64,000 nt of DNA, taken from Actinomycetes bacterium (GTDB lineage: Bacteria; Actinomycetota; Acidimicrobiia; Acidimicrobiales; Ilumatobacteraceae). A model generated the notes under the pieces. The model saw nothing but the letters and a program-made list of their open reading frames with translations. It was not told the origin of the DNA and did not search any database. Shown here piece after piece: positions 22,050 to 27,367 of this stretch. Position numbers and translations under genes: made by a program. The stretch spans positions 1 through 64,000 of the forward strand of contig JANXUF010000058.1 of NCBI GenBank assembly GCA_025356335.1, written 5' to 3'. Within the stretch, counting starts at the first letter, position 1, and each line of letters begins with the position of its first letter.

Positions 22050-22688
22050 TCAGCTACCGCTGTACGACTTCGACTTGACGACTTTGTGTCCCTGGTACAC
22101 GGCGACGACGTAGACGGTGTGCGTGTGGCCGTCGCAGATCCGTCCGAAGGAGGCACTCCCGCTCGCCGGCAAACCCTGAGTGAAGGGTCCGTCGACGTTG
22201 TCGAGCGCGTCGTAGATCATGTCGTACGCGCCGGTGACCTTCCATGTGACGGTGATCATGCCGGTGTCGGGCGGCGGCGTGAAGCTGACACCAGGAGCGA
22301 CCGTCGTCGGACATGGGTCGACGTTTGCCGAGAAACTGGCGAATGCCGGACCGGCAGGCGATGTCGGGGCGGGGGTCTTCGGCGCCGTCTTCGGTGATGT
22401 ATTCGGCGTCGTTTTCGGCGATGTCGACGAGCTCGCCGGGGTTGACGTCGGGCTACTCGCCGTTGTCGTCGTTGTCGCCGATGCGGTACTCGCCGTCGTC
22501 GTCGCTCCCGCTGTTCCGACGGTGCTCGCAGGCGATGTCGCCGTCGTCGTCGCCACCGACGTCGAAGCGGTGCTGGCGGGCGTCGACACGGTGGTTGCGT
22601 TCGTCGCCGTCGACGACACGTTGCTACCGCATGCCGCCAATCCCAGCGCCAGGCAACCCAACAGGGCGATAGCCCGAATATTTGTCAT
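22050..22688 (-). CDS. Thr/Ser/Ala-rich lipoprotein
   Basis: This 212-aa secreted lipoprotein has the signal peptide MTNIRAIALLGCLALGLAAC with lipobox L-A-A-C at the end. Residues 25-115 are a low-complexity Thr/Ser/Ala/Pro linker, typical of surface anchors. The last 90 residues form a small domain (VDPCPTTVAPGVSFTPPPD, MITVTWKVTG, SASFGRICDGHTHTVYVVAV), probably a beta-sandwich of fibronectin-III type, with two cysteines that could form a disulfide. A near-perfect Shine-Dalgarno sequence (AGGAGGTGA) lies 5 nt before ATG 22688, which decides the start over the track's 22901. It is 55 bp after the Nudix gene. Confidence 0.85.
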   Translation of the reverse strand: MTNIRAIALLGCLALGLAACGSNVSSTATNATTVSTPASTASTSVATTTATSPASTVGTAGATTTASTASATTTTTASSPTSTPASSSTSPKTTPNTSPKTAPKTPAPTSPAGPAFASFSANVDPCPTTVAPGVSFTPPPDTGMITVTWKVTGAYDMIYDALDNVDGPFTQGLPASGSASFGRICDGHTHTVYVVAVYQGHKVVKSKSYSGS

Positions 22689-23611: not shown

Positions 23612-26503
23612 TCAGGAGATGACGAACCCAACCATGCCGACTGACACCTGGTCACCGACCGACGCGAACGTCGTGGTGAAAGCGCCGCCCTCCGTAGCAT
23701 TCACATCGACGGGCGCGAACTGATCGACATCGATCCCGAACCCGTTGACATACCTCGGATCGGTCGCACCGAGTAACGAACTGTTGAAGGCGTTACCGAG
23801 AGGGTTCGCGGCGTTGGTCAGCGCGGTGCCGCCGATCGTGACCGAGTCACCGAGGCGTCCGAGATCGCCCTCATTGGCGAAATAGGCAAGCGAAACCTGA
23901 TGCAGCGACGAAGAAGCCATCCCGCCGATGGAAATCGCTGCATCGGACCCTCCATCGGATGTCGAGGATGCGCCGAGGGTCGAGTATTGATCGAGCAAGA
24001 TAACGGTTGACGACGTCGGCGCTGTCGGATCGGCGTAGACCACGAACAAGCTCCAGCCGGCGAGCGCCGCCTGACGGGCCGGATCGGATGTGATGTCGAC
24101 GACGGTGTATTTCCCTGCTCCCCCGTCTTTCACGGCGTCTGTGACATCGGCGACCGATTCGTAGATGTGATCTGCTCGGTTTGAAGTGTTATGAGTCGTG
24201 GCCACGGTCACTGTCGTGGCGGTCGCCAGCGTCGTGTGGGAACCTGCGTTGGCAACGAGTTTCGGGGGCTGGGGGTTCGCCGAATTGCCGCTCCATGCCA
24301 AGAACGCACGAACAATCGATGCGCCCGGCGGGATCACAACAGTGGCGGACGACGAGTTCGTTTCAGCCTGCTGCAATGTCACCACGTTGGTGAGGTGGTC
24401 GTTCTGGCGATTGAGGAGCGTGAGGTTGACGTCGGCGTTGGCATCGACGCCGGCTTGAGCTTGGGCGCATGTCGTGTCGGTGCTCACCCTCGGTGGGTCG
24501 ACGCACGTCAGCGAACTGTTGCCGGCGACCGCCAACCCGCCGCCTTGCAGGTCAGCGAAGAACAGCGGCGTTCCGCCGGATTGCCCGGAATCACCAGGAG
24601 GAAACACCGAACTCTGCGCAACGATGTTGATGCTGTTGGATCCGGTCGCAGTCGCCTGAAAATCGCCGGACTGTACGATCGCCGAGAGTGGCTGCGGCCC
24701 AGCCTGGCGAGTTGTCACCTGCAGTTCCAGCATCACCTCGGTCGATGCATTCCCTCCGACGGCAGGAGGGGTGCAAACCAGATGAGTCGGGTCGGATGGC
24801 GCAGGGCAATCCCACGGTGCTCCATCAGTTCGAGGAACGACGTTGACGAACGTCAACGCGCTCGGCAGCACGATCGTGACGGTCGTTCCTGACGCGACCG
24901 CTACCGCTGGCCTGAACGTTCCGGACGAGACAAACGGCGTGTTGCCGTGATTCGTCAGCCCGATCGAAATATAGGTTCGTAGACCGATGACCGCCGAGCC
25001 CGGTGCAGTGATCGACAGCGCGACCTGCGGCCGCGGAGCCGTCGTCGTGGTGGTGGCGGCGGGCGCGGAGGTGGTCGTCGCTGCGGCGACCGTCGATGCC
25101 ACCGTGTCGGGATCGAGGGGCGTCGTGTTCCTGCCTCCGGTACGGTCTCCCGGGACCGTCGGGCTGACAATGCCGGCCAGGGTCGTGGTCGGGGCTGTGG
25201 TCGTCGTCGTGGATGTGGTCGTGGTCGCCGACGTGGATCTCGGGCGAGTGGTCGTGGCCGCTCGAGTCGCCGGCCGGGTGGTCGCAGACGGCCTCGTCGT
25301 CACCGTCGGAAAGAATGGGGAGAGGGACACGGTCGGGCTCGAACCTGCACCGGAGACGATCGTCGAGTCCGTCGGCAACATCGAGGAACCTCCAGCGGCC
25401 GAAGAGGCAACGGCAGGTGACGATCCGTCGGAAGCCGGCACGGGGAACGTGAACGGGGGGATCGAGGCGGTGACCCCGCTGTTGGCGTTACCGACGCCGG
25501 TGGGGAGGCGGGTGTTGCCGGGGCGCGCGGATGTTGCCGGCCGGACCGTCGTCACCACAGCAGAAGGCGTGGCTGCGCCGGCAGGTGCGATCGGCTTGCT
25601 GAGGCGGTTGACGCCGAAGGCGCCGGCGACGACGACGACCACCGCTGCGGTCGCTGCGGCCGTTGCCTGAACGCTCTTCGACTGCCGCCTGGCGAACGCC
25701 GCGAGACCGGTCCCGCCGTGCAGTTGAGCGAGGTACTTCGCCGCAGGAACGCCGAGGAGCAGTGGGATCAGCGCAGCCCGCAGCGTGGTGTTGGCTTCCT
25801 GCAGGTCGGCGACGAGCCCGTCGCAGTGCTGACACGTTTCGAGGTGGGCATCGACTTTGCGGCGGTCGCGCATCGACAAGCCATCGCGCACATAGGCGCC
25901 GAGCTGCGGACGGATCTCCTGACATTCTGCGGGAATCGGTTGCTGCAGGTGAGCCTGAAGATACGCCTGGCGCAGACCTTCACGGGCACGGTACGCCAAA
26001 GCAGCAACGGCATTCGGAGCGAGCCCGAGGAGCGGCCCGACCTCCGCCGGTGTACGACCCTCGACCTCCGTATGCCACAACACCAGCTGCCAACGTTCCG
26101 GCAACGAGGCGAAGGCGCGTGCCGCGAGCGCCCGGTCGTCGTGCGAGTCCGACTGACGCAGTACCGAGAGATCGAGGACCTCCGGTACCTCCTCGCGGGC
26201 ATCGAGCCGGCGATCTTTGCGCATCCTGTCGTAATAGGCATTGCGGACCGCTGTCACCAGGTAGGGACGGAACGCCAGCTGTGGCCCACCGCCCTTGCGG
26301 ATCGCTTGGAGCACCCGCGTGAAGCCCTCGGCAACGACGTCGTCGGCGTCGGCCCGCGAGCGGGTGAGGCTGCGCGCTGCAGCCTTGGCAGATTCGAGAT
26401 GACGGCGGTATAGCTCGGCAAACGCAGCGTCGTCTCCATCGCGCACCGCTGTGATCAGTTCGGCATCGCTCGTCGGTTGCGCTGTGGAAAAGAGATCTGT
26501 CAT
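23612..26503 (-). CDS. ECF sigma factor fused to zinc-finger anti-sigma, membrane helix and large extracellular domain
   Basis: A single 963-residue polypeptide joins parts that are normally separate. Residues 30-100 are sigma region 2 (DADDVVAEGFTRVLQAI), and 125-180 are region 4 (LPERWQLVLWHTEVEGRTPAEV). Residues 194-227 form a ZAS anti-sigma zinc site (C194, H220, C224, C227 in HLETCQHC). Residues 280-297 are a membrane helix (AAATAAVVVVVAGAFGV). A Thr/Pro-rich stalk to about residue 500 leads to a DUF11-like beta-sandwich (AVASGTTVTIVLPSALTFVNVVP) and a C-terminal surface domain (ATVVIPPGASIVRAFLAWSG). It could therefore sense something outside the cell and release or position its own sigma domain by proteolysis. 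ATG 26503 is chosen because the sigma domain starts there. Confidence 0.85.
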   Translation of the reverse strand: MTDLFSTAQPTSDAELITAVRDGDDAAFAELYRRHLESAKAAARSLTRSRADADDVVAEGFTRVLQAIRKGGGPQLAFRPYLVTAVRNAYYDRMRKDRRLDAREEVPEVLDLSVLRQSDSHDDRALAARAFASLPERWQLVLWHTEVEGRTPAEVGPLLGLAPNAVAALAYRAREGLRQAYLQAHLQQPIPAECQEIRPQLGAYVRDGLSMRDRRKVDAHLETCQHCDGLVADLQEANTTLRAALIPLLLGVPAAKYLAQLHGGTGLAAFARRQSKSVQATAAATAAVVVVVAGAFGVNRLSKPIAPAGAATPSAVVTTVRPATSARPGNTRLPTGVGNANSGVTASIPPFTFPVPASDGSSPAVASSAAGGSSMLPTDSTIVSGAGSSPTVSLSPFFPTVTTRPSATTRPATRAATTTRPRSTSATTTTSTTTTTAPTTTLAGIVSPTVPGDRTGGRNTTPLDPDTVASTVAAATTTSAPAATTTTTAPRPQVALSITAPGSAVIGLRTYISIGLTNHGNTPFVSSGTFRPAVAVASGTTVTIVLPSALTFVNVVPRTDGAPWDCPAPSDPTHLVCTPPAVGGNASTEVMLELQVTTRQAGPQPLSAIVQSGDFQATATGSNSINIVAQSSVFPPGDSGQSGGTPLFFADLQGGGLAVAGNSSLTCVDPPRVSTDTTCAQAQAGVDANADVNLTLLNRQNDHLTNVVTLQQAETNSSSATVVIPPGASIVRAFLAWSGNSANPQPPKLVANAGSHTTLATATTVTVATTHNTSNRADHIYESVADVTDAVKDGGAGKYTVVDITSDPARQAALAGWSLFVVYADPTAPTSSTVILLDQYSTLGASSTSDGGSDAAISIGGMASSSLHQVSLAYFANEGDLGRLGDSVTIGGTALTNAANPLGNAFNSSLLGATDPRYVNGFGIDVDQFAPVDVNATEGGAFTTTFASVGDQVSVGMVGFVIS

Positions 26504-26653
26504 GGTGTCGTCCCAGCACAGGACTGCCGGGGGCCACAAGTATGACGGCAAATCCCGTCGATGGGAGGCGCAGCGGGTCGTGCCGTGGCTCGGCTGCATA
26601 CTGTCGACGTGGCGTTCAGCGTCATAGAACCGGTGTGCAAACGTCGTTCAACC

Positions 26654-27367
26654 ATGAGCAGAACGCATCTCGATCCGCCACGTTGGCGCGATGCCGTGCG
26701 TGAGCAGTTCGGCGTCGGACAGCATGAGACCACGCTCGACAGTCTCGCACCGCTGTTGGACATGATGCAGACAGAACAGGCAGACCTCGGACCATACCTC
26801 AAGGAATTCGGCCGCCGGTGCGGCGCAGCAGGCCATTCGCTCGACAACACCGCTGCCTGGATCTCGATCTTCGCGGCCACGGCCGAACGCCGGATCCGGA
26901 TCGGGCTGCTCGCCCGGCACGCAGCGATTCAACTCGCCGGAGGTTGGACGGTGGGACACGACCAGCTGGTCGCTGCCACGACGGTGGACCCGTTCGACGT
27001 CTCGGCGCTGAAGCTGCGACTCATCCAGGAATACGACCGCCACGACGCATTCGGGCTGGACGTCACCCGGCAGATCTCACTCGTGGTCCTCGAACCCGTT
27101 TTCTCCGAGGAGCCGGTACCGAGTGCAGTCATCGCCGCAGCAGCTCGACAAACGTTCCGCTTCGGTCACACCGTCGCCGAATGCCCGAACGGTCGAGTCG
27201 TCGTGCTCACCGCGCACGGCGGCGACGTCGCCAACATGGCGCGCAACGTCGCCGCGAAAGCAGCGCGCTCGGTGGGTTCACGGCCCGGAGCCGTTCGGGC
27301 CTGGATCGAGACGCTGGCATCGGACCGCTCGTCGATCGATGCATTCCTGGGCGAACTCACTGGATGA
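26654..27367 (+). CDS. Conserved hypothetical protein
   Basis: This 237-aa cytoplasmic protein is not one I can assign to a family. It begins MSRTHLDPPRWRDAV, is helical in the first 110 residues, and has an alpha/beta second half with SLVVLEPVFSEEP and RVVVLTAHGGDVANMARNVAAKA. The strand-turn-helix there is faintly like a degenerate GGDEF half, but the signature is absent and I do not claim it. ATG 26654 is used because the track's extra 31 residues lie in the promoter region shared with the divergent sigma-fusion gene. Sharing that 150-bp region may mean co-regulation. Confidence 0.65.
   Translation: MSRTHLDPPRWRDAVREQFGVGQHETTLDSLAPLLDMMQTEQADLGPYLKEFGRRCGAAGHSLDNTAAWISIFAATAERRIRIGLLARHAAIQLAGGWTVGHDQLVAATTVDPFDVSALKLRLIQEYDRHDAFGLDVTRQISLVVLEPVFSEEPVPSAVIAAAARQTFRFGHTVAECPNGRVVVLTAHGGDVANMARNVAAKAARSVGSRPGAVRAWIETLASDRSSIDAFLGELTG

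Follow-up and report, generated by a model that had tools for sequence, protein, structure and literature searches.

A sigma factor, zinc anti-sigma domain and surface ectodomain encoded by one gene in an Ilumatobacteraceae bacterium: a putative transmembrane sigma receptor and its actinobacterial relatives

Introduction

Can one polypeptide meet a signal outside the cell and carry it to transcription itself? The question is raised by a gene on contig JANXUF010000058.1 of an actinobacterium of the Ilumatobacteraceae (assembly GCA_025356335.1), located in a stretch of 64,000 nucleotides that is called the window here and in whose numbering all window coordinates are given. The encoded protein joins a sigma factor, a zinc anti-sigma domain (ZAS), a membrane helix and a long outside region. 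A preliminary description, made from the DNA alone, had seen sigma-2, sigma-4, a Cys-His zinc site, one helix and an outside region of 660 residues in one frame, and had proposed a receptor that could bring an external signal directly to transcription. Translation, Pfam, NCBIfam and hydropathy confirmed that layout, the outside region was measured at about 665 residues, and a transmembrane sigma receptor is still the best reading, in line with the model published for the extracytoplasmic function (ECF) sigma factor groups ECF48, ECF52 and ECF53. The sigma-receptor system is real and well conserved, and we consider it likely that the window protein is a one-piece transmembrane sigma receptor that is inhibited by its own ZAS, released by proteolysis and autoregulating.

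A single gene for a sigma factor and its putative inhibitor

All 963 codons of the minus-strand frame are open, with zero internal stops, and the domains follow each other in the order sigma-2, sigma-4, HxxxCxxC-type ZAS, single membrane helix, Thr/Ser/Pro linker and remaining outside residues (Table 1). The third-position GC varies between 0.62 and 0.83 along the gene and is unbroken across every domain junction. Because of this continuity, and because homologues keep the domain order (see below), the frame is a genuine single gene, and a sequencing or assembly fusion of separate genes was ruled out on the same two grounds. An alternative in-frame ATG upstream, at 26599, would add 32 residues (995 in total), but the start at 26503 is favoured by the relatives, which begin near that position.

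The presence of sigma-2 and sigma-4 without sigma-3 places the protein among the ECF (group IV) sigma factors; the NCBIfam model sigma70-ECF spans residues 27-180 (E 7e-22) and the RAREGL stretch in region 4 is invariant across the family described below. An HxxxCxxC ZAS and a membrane helix lie C-terminal to the sigma factor on the same chain, as in the fused design of ECF48, ECF52 and ECF53, and positively charged residues (RRQSK) precede the hydrophobic stretch 280-298. The AlphaFold2 model of residues 1-300 (predicted local distance difference test (pLDDT) 84, predicted template modelling score (pTM) 0.44) contains sigma-2, sigma-4 and a helical ZAS that runs into the membrane helix (helix 266-296). 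When this model was compared with known structures using Foldseek, sigma chains from several complexes with an anti-sigma factor gave target TM-scores of 0.53 (SigW-RsiW), 0.51 (SigK) and 0.50 (CnrH-CnrY), whereas most sigma factors from holoenzymes scored lower (0.35-0.43). The ranking agrees with a sigma factor inhibited in cis, yet is only suggestive in view of the low pTM.

Relatives with the same domain order

Scans of genome contigs and of viral contigs with the whole protein as query yielded no relatives, and it was with an alignment as query that the search of the genome contigs succeeded. The scan with a small alignment gave 384 relatives, from which 80 loci were kept; together with loci found earlier these make up a family of 89 open reading frames (ORFs) from about 85 actinobacterial loci, including the window protein and a paralog in its own genome. 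The zinc ligands (C-x20-32-HxxxCxxC) follow sigma-4 in all 89, and in nearly all of them a membrane helix and an ectodomain come next (median ORF length 775 residues, maximum 2149). For instance, a 779-residue protein of Nonomuraea gerenzanensis aligns with the window protein over sigma factor and ZAS (49% identity, E 2e-65) and again in its last 230 residues (28% identity, E 7e-12), in the same order. Since Nonomuraea and tens of other genomes share this order, a chance arrangement is excluded. Within the window's own bacterial family the sigma-receptor type is rare, with a match in 4 of 41 genomes. The two events that the preliminary description had named as fatal, a fusion created by sequencing and a lack of homologues with the same order, have thus not materialized: the frame is intact and homologues are common.

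One genome of the same bacterial family offers a natural comparison. In this genome, G042, the ortholog (L152:4446-5000, minus strand) has 184 residues, is 60% identical and stops directly after sigma-4. The locus is the same, with a PAC2 gene on one side and genes for a periplasmic-binding protein and a chlorite-dismutase-like protein on the other, and neither the ZAS, the membrane helix and the ectodomain nor the partner gene and the upstream motif described below were found there. Judging from this one case, inhibitor, ectodomain, partner and motif seem to be gained and lost as a set.

Such a sigma-only ortholog would also suit a different explanation, in which a decaying or merely inherited surface protein became fused to a sigma factor without any receptor role, or in which the fusion is a product of assembly. 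Frame breaks between stalk and C-terminal module in the relatives L040, L046 and L061 point the same way. Yet the domain order is the same in Nonomuraea, Nocardiopsis, Cellulomonas, Demequina and others, the C-terminal module and its cysteines are kept at about 28% identity over distant lineages, and the codon-position GC is unbroken; the homologues largely refute this explanation, which we regard as highly improbable. In L040, L046 and L061 a tblastn match to the ectodomain outruns the end of the ORF, and the frame breaks in the low-complexity stalk, through mutation or sequencing error. Some apparent losses of the module are frame breaks of this kind in single assemblies.

The outside half and its exchange among relatives

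The stretch between residues 300 and 520 is rich in threonine (23%), alanine (15%), serine (13%) and proline (12%). A Pfam scan of the approximately 465 residues beyond the linker gave zero matches above threshold; DUF11 reached 12.9 bits on the window protein, with a cut-off of 24.6. The DUF11-like domain of the window protein nevertheless carries a W-x-C-x(6-16)-C signature, which recurs in 48 of the 89 family ectodomains, where shuffled sequences would give 0.45; 31 of the 32 sigma receptors that have the C-terminal module show it. This module, the last ~320 residues, is distinct from the DUF11-like domain and has no Pfam entry. Its cysteines C667 and C679 are conserved in the alignment of relatives and its AlphaFold2 model is beta-rich (pLDDT 79, pTM 0.85); a sequence search of the PDB gave no match, and the Foldseek matches (TM ~0.25) were too weak for naming any fold. 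Weak tblastn alignments (27-36% identity, E 4e-4 to 5e-6) connect the region to DUF11-annotated or hypothetical proteins on Thermus and Deinococcus plasmids, and no sigma factor is annotated in those matches. The two domains borne by the stalk, DUF11-like and beta-rich, are of types that cell-surface proteins use. The term DUF11-like, introduced by the preliminary description for the surface module, is kept, weakly, for the first domain and dropped for the last ~320 residues. Its remark that the module looks different from carbohydrate-binding ones was borne out: no carbohydrate-binding module (CBM) or lectin matched the window protein even at E 10, and a carbohydrate-binding ectodomain was rejected, the Foldseek matches to the xylanase Xyn30D and to PNGase F (TM ~0.24-0.25) being left unused. 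An LPXTG-type C-terminal sorting signal was not found in the window protein, which ends ...DQVSVGMVGFVIS.

A hidden Markov model (HMM) grown from the window C-terminus detected the C-terminal module (~220 residues) in 32 of the 89 sigma receptors, the window protein included. On the sigma-ZAS tree its distribution needs 9 changes, compared to 26.5 with shuffled labels; by this reckoning the module is clustered on the tree, yet repeatedly gained or lost. Other relatives have other ectodomains: among the 62 scanned we found DUF11 (nine, best E 1.2e-9), ricin lectins (two), CARDB (two) and DUF3344 (one, E 9e-4). A further type is seen in two Arthrobacter genomes, where an LPXTG major pilin of the SpaH/EbpB type (NCBIfam E 2.8e-111), complete with C-terminal sorting signal, makes up the ectodomain. 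Sigma factor and ZAS stay about 50% identical while the type of ectodomain varies. In view of these matches the inside half has stayed constant, and different types of surface protein have been exchanged for one another as the outside half.

In the two Arthrobacter sp. efr-133 genomes sigma factor, ZAS and membrane helix are in one frame with the pilin (L084:7941-10544 and L086:7941-10568, both on the plus strand), and between these two copies third-position changes predominate over the full chain. A separate pilin gene about 3.5 kb downstream, which adjoins an ORF resembling a TLVTC sortase, has almost the same sorting signal, and a sortase could attach the sigma-pilin to the wall or a pilus. 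Among the family ectodomains an LPXTG motif with anchor occurs only in these two.

Related neighbours were seen elsewhere. The own-genome paralog (contig C80, L002:1642-3195, minus strand; 31% identity over residues 10-550, without the C-terminal module) directly adjoins a gene with an LPTTG sorting signal at its end (L002:3325-4488, minus strand), and sortase-substrate or SpaA-pilin genes are found near the relatives L008, L010, L011, L006, L089 and L082 (plasmids, Micrococcaceae). No sortase or pilin neighbours were seen beside the relatives in Demequina, Nocardioides or Kribbella. A sortase/LPXTG theme was rejected for the window gene, as its own locus yielded no such gene and the theme is confined to the Micrococcaceae, the plasmid relatives and the paralog.

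The divergent GGDEF-fold partner

When the flanking ORFs were clustered, one family stood out as the immediate upstream neighbour of the sigma gene, in divergent orientation; it is present in 56 loci and lies upstream and divergent in 53. Using a profile built from 52 relatives, with the window left out, a single match was obtained among the 442 window ORFs, namely ORF 26546-27367 with its gene start at 26654. By its conservation, the gene at 26654 is a partner of the sigma receptor. Compared with the PDB, the family profile picks up GGDEF structures (best E 8.9e-8; FimX 3.6e-5; TpbB 3.9e-5), while Pfam (its GGDEF model included) and NCBIfam left the window copy unrecognised. The GGDEF/GGEEF active-site motif is replaced in the partner family, where the consensus reads AxLGxGxxAVL, and because this motif is missing a role in cyclic di-GMP synthesis, as a diguanylate cyclase, was dropped. 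By profile-level homology the fold is that of GGDEF proteins, with the degenerate FimX type among the closest known cases, but the partner has neither an EAL domain nor the GGDEF motif. It is probably related to the diguanylate cyclases and either binds nucleotides or has a purely regulatory role.

A promoter-like motif upstream of the sigma genes

Dyad counting over the regions upstream of 76 non-redundant sigma genes brought out a TGAGA-spacer-ATGACGC pattern that far exceeds shuffled sequences (e.g. GAGA-N19-TGAC, 25 versus 0.7). The family consensus is TGAGAC-N17-YATGACGC; ATGACGC stands upstream of 56 of the 89 sigma genes, mostly at a distance of 80-250 bp from the start codon, and 55 of 57 motif sites retain the A at -19. 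On the strand facing the sigma gene, 43 of the 53 divergent loci score above 12; sites facing the partner do so in 4 of 53, versus 0 of 265 shuffles.

The intergene of the window (26504-26653, 150 bp) holds two matches to GAC-N16-YATGACG, one per strand and each facing its gene, and the leaders starting from them would overlap. With 16 matches to GAC-N16-YATGACGS in the 5.57-Mb genome (about 0.0004 expected per 150 bp), two sites in one such intergene are unlikely to be a matter of chance, a judgement to be read with the fact that the exact pattern was fixed after the window sites had been seen. Over the whole window there are three matches where 0.7 are expected, and as many occurred in 5 of 100 shuffles, so there is no clear enrichment. 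A promoter-like motif of the kind that the preliminary description had suggested looking for upstream of both genes exists family-wide, and candidates face both genes in the window, although these are weak. A second close pair of sites, on own-genome contig C17, adjoins AAA-ATPase and integrase-like ORFs, and on contigs C21 and C132 (L131, L144) two LytR-CpsA-Psr-like genes share similar sequence after a GAC-N16-YATGACGC match, perhaps by chance or as a small regulon.

In ten genomes of relatives, the motif precedes the sigma gene and a small number of other genes. Named by eye, we take the latter to be DUF3073-like (four Demequina genomes), xseB-pfkB or pfkB (three), quinone oxidoreductase (two) and gyrB/parE-type genes (two Kribbella). 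In Demequina L107, L108, L110 and L124, i.e. all four genomes searched, a TGAGAC-N17-YATGACGCG-type site precedes the gene of a small conserved MGRGRQKAKDAKIAR... protein, DUF3073-like, again by eye. The set looks like a small regulon that does not consist of surface genes, and for this reason its assignment to the sigma receptor is an inference.

A proposed path from signal to promoter

In the mechanism that we favour, a cytoplasmic sigma-2/sigma-4 unit would be held inactive by the ZAS of the same chain, with one helix spanning the membrane and a long Thr/Ser/Pro stalk bearing the DUF11-like domain and the beta-rich module outside. An outside trigger (a ligand, contact with the wall, the way in which the surface layer is assembled or a mechanical force acting on the stalk) would lead to cleavage, most likely by regulated intramembrane proteolysis, and free the sigma factor. 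The free sigma factor would read the TGAGAC-N17-YATGACGC-type promoter of its own gene, which amounts to positive autoregulation, and in the window it may also read the second motif copy that faces the divergent gene, whose GGDEF-fold product would be a likely cytoplasmic partner or modulator.

Several observations weigh against this mechanism. The proteolysis step (site, product and signal) would rest on published cases, and the two M50 site-2 proteases that score above the family cut-off in the own genome give weak support, as such proteases are near-universal (14 of 14 control genomes). The candidate sites of the window score 9.0 and 9.6, compared with about 20-36 for typical family sites; shuffled windows hold equal scores, so that only their position stands out, and the scarcity of strong partner-facing sites among the relatives' loci adds to this. 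The reversed pattern, used as control, gives 12 genome matches versus 16, because of which we make no claim for an own-genome regulon. Finally, where the motif occurs elsewhere in Demequina and Kribbella, the genes that follow it are of housekeeping and not of surface type, and another regulator could own the motif.

If so, the gene pair would be co-regulated by an outside input through that regulator or another sigma factor. To our knowledge ATGACGC is atypical as an ECF -10 element, and 33 family members have no exact copy of this core upstream, both in favour of such a foreign owner, as are the DUF3073-like, xseB-pfkB, oxidoreductase and gyrB/parE-type genes mentioned above. The motif is, on the other hand, concentrated upstream of sigma genes, with an ECF-like spacing and a near-invariant A at -19, and it was not found at the locus in G042, which lacks both ZAS and partner. 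We hold ownership by another regulator to be rather unlikely.

Proteolytic release of the window protein is proposed because the only studied cases, IutY and SCO4117, point that way. IutY of Pseudomonas putida (ECF243) resembles the window protein in that a sigma factor and a membrane anti-sigma factor are joined in it, and is released by proteolysis through Prc and RseP (PMC8999054). ECF52/SCO4117 of Streptomyces coelicolor is an actinobacterial protein that, like the window protein, has sigma-2/sigma-4, a zinc finger, a membrane helix and a long C-terminal extension in one chain; its truncation was taken as support for proteolytic release (PMC5826349, PMC8999054). The ECF53 and ECF48 proteins have a C-terminal zinc finger with one or two membrane helices, and proteolytic activation is expected for them too (PMC8999054). 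The sigma factor could also be released without proteolysis and be active while tethered, through a conformational change of the ZAS brought about by zinc redox, by the GGDEF-like partner as it binds or by a mechanical force that acts on the stalk. Soluble anti-sigma factors with a ZAS domain answer to redox in this way (PMC8999054), release could plausibly be the task of the conserved cytoplasmic partner with its nucleotide-signalling fold, and no recurrent protease neighbour was found among the flanking-gene clusters listed. A tethered sigma factor, however, would reach little, and the closest experimental cases (IutY and the SCO4117 truncation) indicate proteolysis (PMC8999054); we think release without cleavage rather improbable.

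The fused sigma/anti-sigma design is already known in Actinobacteria (ECF48, ECF52 and ECF53), and the sequence of external signal, proteolysis and release is the published model for these transmembrane receptors (PMC8999054, PMC5826349), to which the anatomy of the window protein lends support by analogy. For SCO4117 positive autoregulation was proposed (PMC5826349). SCO4117 has a proline-rich region and a terminal carbohydrate-binding module, whereas in the window protein a Thr/Ser-rich stalk is followed by a DUF11-like domain and by a beta module without CBM match. In this comparison, based on published descriptions, the ECF52 feature of a proline-rich region followed by a carbohydrate-binding module was not found in it. 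Some ECF52 and ECF53 proteins contain glycosyl hydrolase or carbohydrate-binding domains (PMC10766802), and while ECF extensions have been described up to 400 residues (PMC8999054), the window protein continues for about 735 beyond the ZAS. Likewise, the published SCO4117 motif CSGYN-17-SRHA differs from TGAGAC-N17-YATGACGC. We know of no large ectodomain in IutY like that of the window protein.

As the ectodomains appear to be borrowed from surface structures, even whole LPXTG pilins, the sigma factor might read surface assembly or attachment, with the GGDEF-fold partner providing a link to a nucleotide second messenger. In this speculative extension, which we offer with little confidence, a sortase would fix the Arthrobacter sigma factor covalently to the wall or pilus.

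Coordinates and neighbouring genes

The features of the locus are collected in Table 1. Two genes downstream of the sigma receptor, at 22050-22688 on the minus strand, lies a Thr/Ser-rich, lipoprotein-like ORF with a LGLAACGS signal. PADLOC gave no match to a defence system.

Table 1. Position and supporting evidence of the sigma-receptor gene, its domains, the candidate promoters and the divergent gene (aa, amino acids)
Feature	Position	Strand	Evidence
Sigma-receptor gene, whole, 963 aa	23612..26503	-	uninterrupted frame by translation
Sigma-70 region 2, aa 31-99	26207..26413	-	Pfam PF04542 Sigma70_r2, E 2e-13
Sigma-70 region 4, aa 128-175	25979..26122	-	Pfam PF08281 Sigma70_r4_2, E 3.6e-4, slightly under cut-off
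ZAS motif C194...H220xxxC224xxC227, aa 194-227	25823..25924	-	Pfam zf-HC2, E 2.8e-9
Predicted membrane helix, aa ~278-300	25604..25672	-	hydropathy maximum 2.1 at 280-298
Thr/Ser/Pro/Ala-rich extracytoplasmic linker (predicted), aa ~301-495	25019..25603	-	composition
DUF11-like domain, aa ~496-635, W-x-C-x10-C (C566/C577)	24599..25018	-	sub-threshold Pfam DUF11
C-terminal surface module, aa 638-963, HMM core 713-930	23615..24592	-	iterated HMM, E 9e-58
Candidate promoter facing the sigma gene, GAC-N16-TATGACGC	26619..26645	-	pattern match, consensus from relatives
Candidate promoter facing the partner gene, GAC-N16-TATGACGG	26522..26548	+	pattern match, consensus from relatives
Divergent partner gene, 237 aa, degenerate GGDEF family	26654..27367	+	profile match, E 2.9e-12

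Implications

Fused sigma/anti-sigma receptors are known but little studied, and for Actinobacteria the surveyed papers report work on one, SCO4117. The type of surface module, the GGDEF-fold divergent partner, the shared motif and the sigma-pilin fusion seem new in the surveyed literature, although the main ECF classification may already note some of them. The family thereby gains three testable handles: the divergent partner, a promoter-like motif to which a small regulon may belong, and ectodomain swaps that arose in nature. The latter, with the pilin fusion and the sigma-only ortholog, are ready-made experiments on the role of the outside part.

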